A DNA stretch of 64,000 nt from Tahibacter amnicola. GTDB lineage: Bacteria > Pseudomonadota > Gammaproteobacteria > Xanthomonadales > Rhodanobacteraceae. The first letter of the stretch is position 1, and each line of letters starts with the position of its first letter. The notes under the pieces are model-generated. The model was not told where the DNA came from. It saw only the letters and a list, made by a program, of their open reading frames with translations, and made no database searches. Positions 16,474 to 53,368 of the stretch are shown here, piece after piece. The stretch lies in contig NZ_CP104694.1 of NCBI RefSeq assembly GCF_025398735.1, forward strand, positions 5,793,465 through 5,857,464, in the 5' to 3' direction. Made by a program: the position numbers and the translations under genes.

Positions 16474-16926
16474 ATGAAAAACCAGCCCTTGTTCCTGCTG
16501 TTCGCTGCCACGCTGGGCGTTGCCGTCGCCGGCGCCCTGGTCGTCGACCGCCCGGCCACGGCCGCCGCCACCGTGCCGGTGGAAGCCGCCGCCGCTGACA
16601 GCCCGTCCGCCGGACGCGACCTGCGCCGAGGCGATCGGCCAGGCCGTTTCGCCGAGCGGGCTCGCAGCCGCGGCCGGCACTTGGCCGAACCCGTGCGGGC
16701 CGTGGTGCGCGATCTGCGCACCCTGGAGCATCTGTATCTCCTCGACGGCCGCGCCAAGGAGATACCGGATCTCTACCGCGACCTGCTCAAGCGCACTGAG
16801 CACCCGATGCTGCGCCAGTTCGCCTATCGTCGCCTGACCCGGCTGGAACTGCGCCCGACCAATACCGACGGCGCCATCGCCCTGGCCCGCCAGAGCCTGG
16901 AGGAGGATCTCAAGCGCATTCAGTGA
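16474..16926 (+). CDS. Small exported hypothetical protein, probably carrying two compensating frameshifts
   Basis: 150 aa as read, from an ATG with GGAG-like context ('cggagtccgcc'). The first 20 residues form a signal peptide or anchor ('FLLFAATLGVAVAGALVV'). The last third ('RTLEHLYLLDGRAKEIPDLY') is helical and coding-like. The central part, about residues 46-72, is Arg-rich with lower third-position GC; the +1 frame over 16600-16690 has much higher GC3 and reads 'DATCAEAIGQAVSPSGLAA'. That suggests one indel on each side. No family is recognised. Confidence 0.5.
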   Translation: MKNQPLFLLFAATLGVAVAGALVVDRPATAAATVPVEAAAADSPSAGRDLRRGDRPGRFAERARSRGRHLAEPVRAVVRDLRTLEHLYLLDGRAKEIPDLYRDLLKRTEHPMLRQFAYRRLTRLELRPTNTDGAIALARQSLEEDLKRIQ

Positions 16927-17059
16927 TCTCCGGGCGCAGCGAAAACCGGCGGCTGTCAGCTGGCACGATTGGCCATTCAGGCACGATTTACTCCCGGCGA
17001 CGAAATCGCCATCAGTCGCACCGCCGCGTAATCTTTCGGCACTGCAACCGTTCGGGGTT

Positions 17060-17180
17060 CTGCTGCATCCTTGTTCCCGGACGCGGATCTCCTACCGCGT
17101 CCCACCCCACGGAGTCGCCGCCCCCATCGGCACTCCGTACCCCAAGCGGGCACCAAACCCCTGGTGCCCGCTTTCTTTTC
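17060..17180 (+). ncRNA. sX13-like small RNA (three hairpins, four C-rich single-stranded motifs)
   Basis: Three successive perfect or near-perfect hairpins: GGACGCGG/CCGCGTCC (17079-17086 with 17095-17102), ACGGAGT+GCCG with CGGC+ACTCCGT (17109-17138, one bulged C), and AGCGGGCACCA/TGGTGCCCGCT (17145-17172) followed by TTCTTTTC. C-rich unpaired motifs are CCACCCC between hairpins 1 and 2, CCCCC in loop 2, ACCCCA between 2 and 3, and AACCCC in loop 3. This is the architecture described for sX13 of Xanthomonas, whose C-rich loops bind G-rich ribosome binding sites. TAATCT near 17031 is a possible -10. The 5' end is approximate. Confidence 0.68.
17145..17180 (+). terminator. Strong intrinsic terminator of the sX13-like RNA
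   Basis: An 11-bp perfect stem, AGCGGGCACCA with TGGTGCCCGCT, loop of six bases (AACCCC), then TTCTTTTC. The T run is on the plus strand only, so it ends a plus-strand transcript. The nearest plus-strand CDS ends more than 200 bp upstream, which supports a separate RNA gene. Confidence 0.85.
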
Positions 17181-17188
17181 CGGGCGCG

Positions 17189-17989
17189 TCAGATTTCCGT
17201 CGCGGCGGATTTCTCTTCGGCCTTTGCCCGGTCCCACAGGGCATCCTGCTGGGCCAGGGTCATTCCCTTCAGACCCCCGGCATCCACCGCGAGCTGTTCC
17301 ATGCGGCGGAAACGGCGCTCGAACTTGGCGTTAGCCGATCGCAGCGCGCGTGAAACGTCCACCTTGGCGTGCCGCGCAATATTCACGCTGACGAACAGCA
17401 GGTCGCCGATCTCGTCATTCAGGCGTTCGGCGTCACCGCCGGCGAATTCAGCGCGCACTTCGTCGATTTCCTCGTGCAACTTGTCGAAAACCGGTGCCAC
17501 GTCCGGCCAGTCGAACCCGACTGTCGCCGCACGCGCCTGCAGCTTCCGCGCACGCTGCCACTCGGGCATGCCGCGGGAAATCCCGGCGAGCAGGCTGTTG
17601 TCGCTCTCGCCCCGGGCCTCGCGCTCGGCGCGCTTGTGCGATTCCCAGGCCCGCGTCTGGGCCTGGGCGTCGGCCACTTCCGCGCCGGCGAACACATGCG
17701 GGTGGCGCCGCACCATCTTCGTACAGATTGCCTCGACGACATCGGCGAAACGGAAGTGTCCGGCCTCTTCAGCCATGCGCGCGTGGAACACCACCTGGAA
17801 CAACAGGTCGCCCAGTTCATCGCAGAGCTGGCTGTAGTCACGGCGATCGATCGCGTCGGCGACTTCATACGCCTCTTCGATCGTGTAGGGAGCGATGGTG
17901 TCGAAATCCTGCTGCACATCCCAGGGGCAGCCGCCATCGGGATTGCGCAGCGTCGCCATGATGCGCAGGAGGTCGTCGATCGTATGCAT
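17189..17989 (-). CDS. mazG: Nucleoside triphosphate pyrophosphohydrolase MazG
   Basis: 266 aa from ATG 17989 (AAGGG upstream), matching E. coli MazG (263 aa). Both MazG domains are present: N-terminal 'PDGGCPWDVQQ', 'EEAYEVADAI' and 'ELGDLLFQVVFH', with the second domain near 'EIDEVRAEFAGG' and 'EIGDLLFVSVNIARH'. The enzyme hydrolyses (d)NTPs to NMP and pyrophosphate and lowers (p)ppGpp-related signals in E. coli. It follows cysQ by 47 bp and is the last gene of the minus-strand run from gspG. Confidence 0.95.
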   Translation of the reverse strand: MHTIDDLLRIMATLRNPDGGCPWDVQQDFDTIAPYTIEEAYEVADAIDRRDYSQLCDELGDLLFQVVFHARMAEEAGHFRFADVVEAICTKMVRRHPHVFAGAEVADAQAQTRAWESHKRAEREARGESDNSLLAGISRGMPEWQRARKLQARAATVGFDWPDVAPVFDKLHEEIDEVRAEFAGGDAERLNDEIGDLLFVSVNIARHAKVDVSRALRSANAKFERRFRRMEQLAVDAGGLKGMTLAQQDALWDRAKAEEKSAATEI

Positions 17990-52394: not shown

Positions 52395-52631
52395 GGACAC
52401 CTTGCAGATGAGGAGTGAGGGGGGAACGGGCCGCGGGGCACGTCACGCGTGCGGCGGACCCGGCGCAAGTGTTCCAGAGATTCAGGCAGTTGATAAGGCG
52501 GGCTGGCAAAAGTCATTGTCCCGCCAGAAAACCTGCCGGTTTCGGCCCGGATCCGAGGGAACCCGTGCGACAGCTTGTCCGGACCTGCGGTGTTTCCCGT
52601 TGCGCCGGCGTCACCTAGAATCCGCGCACTC
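52395..52631. other. Intergenic region with possible promoters between yfaA and the Mn riboswitch
   Basis: This 237-bp stretch separates divergent units. TAGAAT at 52616-52621 is a plausible -10 for the riboswitch transcript and would place its start a few bases before the aptamer; the -35 (GTTTCC at 52592, 18-bp spacing) is weak. I see no gene here. Confidence 0.4.
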
Positions 52632-52800
52632 CATCGGGGAGTAGCCGGCCGCGGCTTCGTCGCGGAATCTGCGTCAACACACTTGATCGGAACGGATCAT
52701 GGCGCAGGGCACGCTCAGCGTGCGGCGAGACCTTTGGCATGCGGGCGCACCCGGTCGGGGCGACGCCGGCGTGTCATTGCGTCCCTTCGCCCCGCCCCCA
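52632..52800 (+). promoter_or_regulatory. yybP-ykoY manganese riboswitch
   Basis: The leader of the Mn exporter gene has the conserved blocks of the yybP-ykoY family: GGGGAGTAGCC (52636-52646), GCGTCAACACACTTG (52671-52685) and GGCGAGACCTTTGGC (52724-52738). These form the two loops that clamp Mn2+. The distal part (52741-52800) is GC-rich and ends 10 bp before the ATG, consistent with control of translation or termination. The boundaries are approximate. Confidence 0.85.
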
Positions 52801-52810
52801 AAGGTTCAAC

Positions 52811-53368
52811 ATGCCGGCACTGCTGGTCGCCCTGTTCGCCGTCGCCATCGCCGAGATCGGTGATAAGACCCAACTGCTCTCGCTGATTCTCGCCGCCCGC
52901 TACCGGAAGCCGTGGGCGATCTGCGGAGGCATCCTCATTGCCACCCTCGCCAACCATGCGCTGGCGGGCTGGGCCGGCGCGATCGTGGCCCAGTGGTTCA
53001 CGCCACCGGTGCTGCGCTGGCTGGTGGCCCTCAGTTTTCTCGGCGTGGCGGCCTGGGCGCTCGTGCCGGACAAAGCGGACGACCAGGCCGATTCCAGCAG
53101 CCGCCACGGCGTGCTGGTGGCGACCACCATCGCGTTCTTCCTCGCCGAGATGGGTGACAAGACGCAGGTCGCCACGGTCGTGCTGGCGGCACAGTACCCG
53201 CCACTCTGGCAGGTGATCGTGGGAACAACATTCGGCATGCTCGCGGCCAATGTGCCGGTGGTGTTCCTGGGCGCCCGTCTGGCCGAGCGGCTGCCGCTGC
53301 GCGCCGCACGCATCGCGACGGCAGCAATTTTTTGCGTTCTTGCCTTGTGGATAATTGCGCGCGGCTGA
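52811..53368 (+). CDS. mneA: Mn2+ exporter of the UPF0016/GDT1 family (MneA-like)
   Basis: 185 aa from ATG 52811. Six membrane segments in two homologous halves, each with the family's signature: 'AIAEIGDKTQLLSLILAARY' and 'FLAEMGDKTQVATVVLAAQY'. Proteins of this family (MneA in Vibrio and Xanthomonas) export manganese. The Mn riboswitch directly upstream confirms the function. Convergent with the diguanylate cyclase gene with no gap. Confidence 0.93.
   Translation: MPALLVALFAVAIAEIGDKTQLLSLILAARYRKPWAICGGILIATLANHALAGWAGAIVAQWFTPPVLRWLVALSFLGVAAWALVPDKADDQADSSSRHGVLVATTIAFFLAEMGDKTQVATVVLAAQYPPLWQVIVGTTFGMLAANVPVVFLGARLAERLPLRAARIATAAIFCVLALWIIARG

Follow-up and report, generated by a model that had tools for sequence, protein, structure and literature searches.

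A genus-specific, covarying three-hairpin element of Tahibacter is very probably a small RNA gene that resembles sX13 in design

The sX13 RNA of Xanthomonas is, according to the available part of PMC3771888, built of three stems with C4, C4 and C5 loops and encoded beside polA. The same part of that source reports that the C-rich loops are needed and that mRNAs with G-rich start regions are targeted. Repression by sX13 does not depend on Hfq. Similarly, the loop motifs of NfeR1 pair with start regions, as described in the accessible section of PMC10746234. For Tahibacter, a full-text search of the literature combining the genus name with 'small RNA', in that wording alone, found no paper. The element considered here lies in a Tahibacter genome consisting of a single contig of 6.46 Mb, and the window, i.e. 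the whole stretch of 64,000 nucleotides that was analysed, corresponds to G000:C1:5793465-5857464.

On the plus strand, the predicted fold of 17076-17180 comprises three successive GC-rich hairpins (17079-17102, 17109-17138 and 17144-17173), as had been claimed by an earlier reading made from the letters of the window (hereafter the sequence-only reading). Folding of 17040-17180, the check proposed there, gave an energy of −64.7 kcal/mol vs −39.9 ± 3.6 kcal/mol for dinucleotide shuffles (z −6.9), and none of the 200 shuffles was equally stable. The proposed sRNA (17076-17180, ~105 nt) is supported by this fold, by the orthologues and by their covariation, and its 5′ end is placed at 17076 from the start of conservation and structure. 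Hairpin 1 carries the loop AUCUCCUA (17087-17094), and the UCUCCU within it is of the anti-Shine-Dalgarno type, a core absent from the list of motifs in the sequence-only reading. The unpaired C-rich motifs that were on that list are all visible in the window, namely CCCCCAU in loop 2 (17121-17127), AACCCC in loop 3, CACCCC in linker 1 (17103-17108) and ACCCC in linker 2 (17139-17143), but the C-run of linker 2 is not strictly conserved and that of loop 3 is kept in only two of seven orthologous sequences.

Hairpin 3 contains 12 pairs and is followed by a U-rich tail, so that 17144-17180 reads as an intrinsic terminator on the plus strand; the terminator scan reported a terminator-like site here, and both of the sites it found in 16900-17300 are on the plus strand. 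As the minus strand of the element folds nearly as well (z −6.7), it is mainly the terminator tail that supports the strand assignment. Open reading frames called mechanically cross the stretch, which counts against a non-coding sRNA gene. Conversely, no AUG was found in the RNA of the window (17076-17180) and indels of 1 and 2 nt separate the species in the seven-sequence alignment, and these two features argue against a coding role.

Two genes flank the element. The upstream gene (16474-16926, plus strand) encodes a 150-aa protein with a signal-peptide-like start, as read by eye, and no Pfam family matched it. The earlier view that this gene is damaged was not borne out: homologues were found in 20 of 37 genomes, its own included, none of them with internal stops, and 15 of the 20 matches are near full length, starting no later than residue 14 and ending no earlier than residue 147. 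The terminator had also been thought to have no coding sequence to serve. The terminator itself stands, but this conserved, intact gene ends ~150 nt before the hairpin element on the same strand. Downstream, the convergent neighbour is mazG (17189-17989, minus strand; PF03819, 4e-41). The upstream gene and mazG form the same convergent pair of neighbours in a further 10 genera. In one of the Tahibacter genomes (G007) mazG is 13.7 kb away and the RNA is still found beside the upstream gene.

Between the stop of the upstream gene and the hairpins lies a promoter-like element (17038-17069, plus strand), which consists of GGCACTGCAACC (17038-17049), a variable spacer of 15 nt and GCATC (17065-17069). 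The first block (GGCAC..GCAACC) and the GCATC block are conserved, and the spacer is exactly 15 nt in all seven sequences. The exact two-block pattern occurs once per genome in six of the eight genomes of the genus, always at this RNA; relative to this pattern, the first block of G007 has one additional base and one substitution. A reversed control pattern occurred once in the eight genomes. We take the GCAAC block to be reminiscent of an ECF-type −35 element. Judged from its sequence, the two-block element is probably the promoter of the RNA. It remains a candidate, since the promoter scan found no sigma-70 consensus match in these blocks, and the RNA could instead be cut from the mRNA of the upstream gene.

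By DNA search, the element is present in seven of eight Tahibacter genomes. The eighth (G005, 680 contigs) gave short chance-level matches only; neither mazG nor the upstream gene was found in it, which makes the absence of the RNA there uninformative. Alignment of the few available sequences, seven from a single genus (111 columns), allowed RNAalifold to recover the three hairpins with 26 pairs, of which 10 are changed on both sides. In this alignment 93.3% of cells pair, vs 38-50% after displacement of the partners by 1-3 columns, and the covariation score was reached by none of 500 shuffles, the shuffle contrasts being inflated by the relatedness of the sequences and by the derivation of the structure from the same alignment. 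The alignment energy was −40.4 kcal/mol vs −13.9 ± 2.9 kcal/mol for column-class shuffles (z −9.2; reached by none of 300). Helix 1 is the weakest, with 85.5% of cells paired and two of eight pairs changed on both sides, while the stem of hairpin 2 has four of nine pairs so changed. Folded singly, all seven sequences form three hairpins and leave both UCUCCU and CCCCCAU unpaired, stem 1 differing slightly between them.

Over the same alignment the loop seeds are fixed while the stems vary. UCUCCU of loop 1 is identical in all seven sequences, as is CCCCCAU of loop 2 together with the surrounding GCCCCCAUCGGC, and linker 1 retains a C-run of at least three in each. The C-run of loop 3 is restricted to the window and G007. 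Conservation of the C-rich loops in related genomes, the lack of which the sequence-only reading had listed among the results that would refute it, holds for loop 2 and linker 1. The element combines conserved, covarying structure and a terminator in a position between genes, as is generally asked of a trans-acting sRNA gene, and with regard to its sequence features it is very probably an sRNA gene.

A covariance model of this RNA, trained on the seven Tahibacter sequences (R1), scored these training genomes at 82.5-100 bits, and the next best match among the candidates scored in 117 genomes of the family reached 34.2 bits. In 299 genomes of the order, five matched at E 0.005, i.e. three Tahibacter genomes together with G019 and G572, the latter two via terminators; in 229 genomes of the class, the genome of the window alone matched at E 0.001. 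These whole-genome scans scored at most 13-34 candidates per genome, so that weak relatives may be missed, and they did not report a 36-bit sX13 of G021 considered below. Five weak-match loci (best 34.2 bits) were examined as homologues outside the genus and rejected, the strong agreement being in all five a AAACGGGCGCC-type terminator hairpin. A pattern scan of named genomes gave two matches, both from Tahibacter (T. harae and T. aquaticus), although the pattern is one base too long for five of the seven variants and the scan is accordingly weak evidence of absence elsewhere.

The syntenic site was likewise inspected in other genomes, where R1 scored no more than 13.5 bits at any of 36 loci that surround the upstream gene or mazG. 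In the 10 other genera, the gap that separates these two genes contains neither UCUCCU nor CCCCCAU. Folding predicts a hairpin loop with a run of four C in one of the 10 gaps (G020), and visual inspection shows terminator-type hairpins in some of them, e.g. in G014, G019 and G020. In G017 a hairpin unit of the GCCGATAAATCGGCTCCCACA type, REP-like by eye, recurs several times between the upstream-gene homologue and mazG. The element is real, covarying and specific to the genus Tahibacter.

The sequence-only reading had proposed a homologue or analogue of sX13. At the gathering cut-off of 50 bits, the Rfam sX13 model (RF02232) has no match in the window. The covariance search suggested as a check returned 18 bits for this RNA, from the terminator hairpin only (model positions 45-74), and thereby counts against sX13. 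Among six orthologous loci RF02232 matched one (25.1 bits, E 0.34). The genome does have an sX13 of its own at C1:800514-800625 on the minus strand, where it follows the likewise oriented polA gene (PF00476 DNA_pol_A, 2.7e-162) at ~130 nt. This true sX13 scores 42.5 bits and also falls below the cut-off, so that the cut-off test alone is not decisive. RF02232 seems too narrow for this bacterial family: only 10 of 41 genomes pass its cut-off, and nine of the 10 sub-threshold loci that were fetched have polA close by. Altogether, polA was found within the fetched stretch at 18 of 20 sX13 loci, one of the 18 being a polA fragment only. The RNA described here does not lie beside polA; its neighbours are mazG and the upstream gene without a Pfam family.

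A second model (R2) was built from 17 sX13 RNAs found within the family; polA, whole or in part, is close to 16 of them, and several are below the Rfam cut-off. Over 485 kb, R2 matched none of the seven orthologues even at E 10; its structure is rough, as the terminators align imperfectly. On the genome's own sX13 it gave 89.7 bits, as expected for a training sequence. In the reverse direction, R1 matched the sX13 of G021, from another genus, over its full length at 36 bits, which is merely a hint given that terminator-type matches of R1 in whole-genome scans reach 30.8 bits in the same genome as the window and up to 34.2 bits elsewhere. Three further sX13 genes scored 17-21 bits, within the background (maximum 21.4 bits over the window plus 400 kb, 464 kb of the genome), a level that the G021 match exceeds, and none of seven Tahibacter sX13 loci was matched at E 1.

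A 4C/5C motif in every apical loop, the trait of Xanthomonas sX13, is not what was found: three stems are present and the C5 of loop 2 is invariant, loop 1 reads UCUCCU, and loop 3 has a C-run in two of seven sequences. The sX13 RNAs of the family themselves have CUCCCU rather than 4C as the core of loop 1 in the 17-RNA alignment. The AACGGC leader of sX13 is absent from this RNA. Membership in sX13 is accordingly unsupported by both RF02232 and R2, and the RNA, although built like sX13, is a gene separate from the polA-linked sX13 of its own genome, descent from sX13 not being supported. Of the original proposal the analogue fits, in view of the size class, the three hairpins, the anti-SD-like loop 1, the C5 loop 2 and the terminator in hairpin 3, and the homologue is not supported.

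The searches for sX13 brought up two further loci. In the genome of the window, a second sX13 match (G000:C1:2278730-2278816, plus strand, 34 bits) lies just downstream of a reading frame with a YYDR-type repeat end, and its terminator loop UUCCCCU is kept in all six genus sequences examined. It was considered as a form of the present RNA and rejected, its hairpins following the YYDR-type repeat frame, and possibly it is a 3′-UTR-derived C-rich RNA. In G001 (C4:37500-44000) two sX13 copies are separated by 3.7 kb; one adjoins polA and the other adjoins fragments of a polA-like gene, apparently as the outcome of a local duplication. Elsewhere in the window, at 52628-52795 on the plus strand, an ordinary manganese (yybP-ykoY) riboswitch scored 46.8 bits (cut-off 45 bits), and the gene immediately behind it (52811-53368) encodes a divalent cation/proton antiporter of the GDT1 family (PF01169, 1e-41).

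Loop 1 is complementary to AGGAGA, a motif of Shine-Dalgarno type, and loop 2 to (AU)GGGGG. Motifs were counted by a simple script with rough gene calls for 336 genes of the window plus 400 kb, the ribosome-binding region being taken as −25 to +10. AGGAGA was found in 13 ribosome-binding regions vs none at −60 to −26 and one in samples of coding sequence. Within the ribosome-binding regions its 13 occurrences narrowly exceed those of every other arrangement of the same letters (next 12). GGGG was found in 42 ribosome-binding regions vs 29 upstream (−60 to −26) and 15 in coding sequence. Any anti-SD loop would show such counts, which are thus permissive and not decisive. The many GGAG and GGGGA sites predicted for this stretch do exist, in 16 and six, respectively, of 56 window genes (−25 to +10, rough gene calls), but they are not special to the locus (GGAG 95 of 336, GGGGA 19 of 336). 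Seeds as short as these (6-7 nt) find matches in many ribosome-binding sites and do not allow a specific target to be named. By analogy with the described RNAs, the loops likely act on ribosome-binding sites and would make the RNA a broad regulator of translation initiation.

In combination, these results lead us to favour, as a likely explanation, a Tahibacter-specific gene on the plus strand for a trans-acting sRNA of ~105 nt, with its own promoter and with seeds that pair with ribosome-binding sites. Transcription would proceed on the plus strand, probably from a promoter within approximately 17038-17069, and would be ended by the third hairpin. Hairpins 1 and 2 would expose UCUCCU and CCCCCAU as single-stranded seeds, to which linker 1 would add a C-run. 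The seeds could then pair with Shine-Dalgarno sequences (AGGAGA) and G-runs (GGGG) near the start codons of several mRNAs, and such pairing would block the entry of ribosomes, after the manner of sX13 and NfeR1, with repression as the presumed outcome.

An unlikely alternative is that the element belongs to the upstream gene (16474-16926) as a structured 3′ UTR, in which the hairpins terminate and stabilise the mRNA and from which an sRNA is perhaps released by processing. This reading would account for hairpins that follow this gene at ~150 nt on its own strand, for an RNA that stays by it in G007 despite the displacement of mazG by 13.7 kb, and for the terminator-type hairpins noted by eye at the same spot in some other genera (G014, G019 and G020). 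A mere terminator would, however, have no need of hairpins 1 and 2 or of invariant loops, and the two-block element of fixed spacing between the stop of the gene and the RNA resembles a separate promoter.

The remaining alternatives are both very improbable. A true member of the sX13 family, having arisen as a second copy of the gene at polA and since diverged, would be expected to resemble the Tahibacter sX13 loci most closely if copied there, yet none of the seven was matched at E 1. The order of features is the same, and the sX13 RNAs of the family likewise have an anti-SD-like loop 1 (core CUCCCU); the 36 bits obtained with R1 for the full-length sX13 of G021, with three more at the background level of 17-21 bits, scarcely exceed terminator-type matches of 30-34 bits. 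Moreover, RF02232 gives 18 bits from the terminator only, the family model finds none of the seven orthologues, and the AACGGC leader and C-rich loop 3 are absent or not conserved. Equally doubtful is an action of the element on a protein or from the other strand, as a protein sponge, as the 3′ end of mazG or through G-rich loops of a minus-strand RNA. That the minus strand folds nearly as well and that mazG is transcribed toward the element would suit such a role, against which the terminator scan places its sites on the plus strand only.

For the origin of the preferred sRNA gene, it may tentatively be supposed, with confidence somewhat short of even, that a second RNA of the sX13 design arose between convergent genes independently of the polA-linked sX13, and that the two unrelated RNAs draw on a single pool of ribosome-binding sites, held in common or divided between them. 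If true, this would be a convergent birth of a broad translation-tuning RNA under its own conserved promoter. The element adds a covariation-supported candidate sRNA family without an above-cut-off match in Rfam. It may also serve as a case for the origin of C-rich-loop RNAs, as an old sX13 at polA and a genus-limited RNA occur in one genome while sister genera keep the site without the loop motifs. The finding is modest in that its mode of action, if right, is already known.

Among described RNAs, ncS35 of Burkholderia (RF02870) combines a terminator with a hairpin whose loop reads ACCCCCAUCG. Its model matched the RNA of the window weakly over the full length (17.8 bits, E 0.058, cut-off 79 bits) and reported nothing in six orthologous loci at E 3; the likeness is accordingly regarded as chance. 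PmaR of Agrobacterium, so far as the available account goes, is likewise narrowly distributed and pairs with its targets through an accessible C-rich loop, but consists of one long stem with one loop. Another is αr14/NfeR1 of Sinorhizobium and other rhizobia, which in the accessible section of PMC10746234 has three hairpins whose stems vary while their anti-SD loop motifs stay invariant. There, the same CCUCCUCCC motif stands in all three hairpins, whereas the present RNA has UCUCCU, CCCCCAU and a variable loop 3 and does not repeat CCUCCUCCC in its three hairpins. From sX13 (RF02232, Xanthomonadaceae) it differs in its position away from polA, in lacking an above-cut-off Rfam match and the AACGGC leader, in a loop 3 whose C-run is not conserved, and in sharing its genome with a true sX13. 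With sX13 it nevertheless has in common a length of ~105-115 nt, three hairpins with C-rich or anti-SD loops 1 and 2, a third hairpin that forms the intrinsic terminator, and loops complementary to G-rich ribosome-binding sites.
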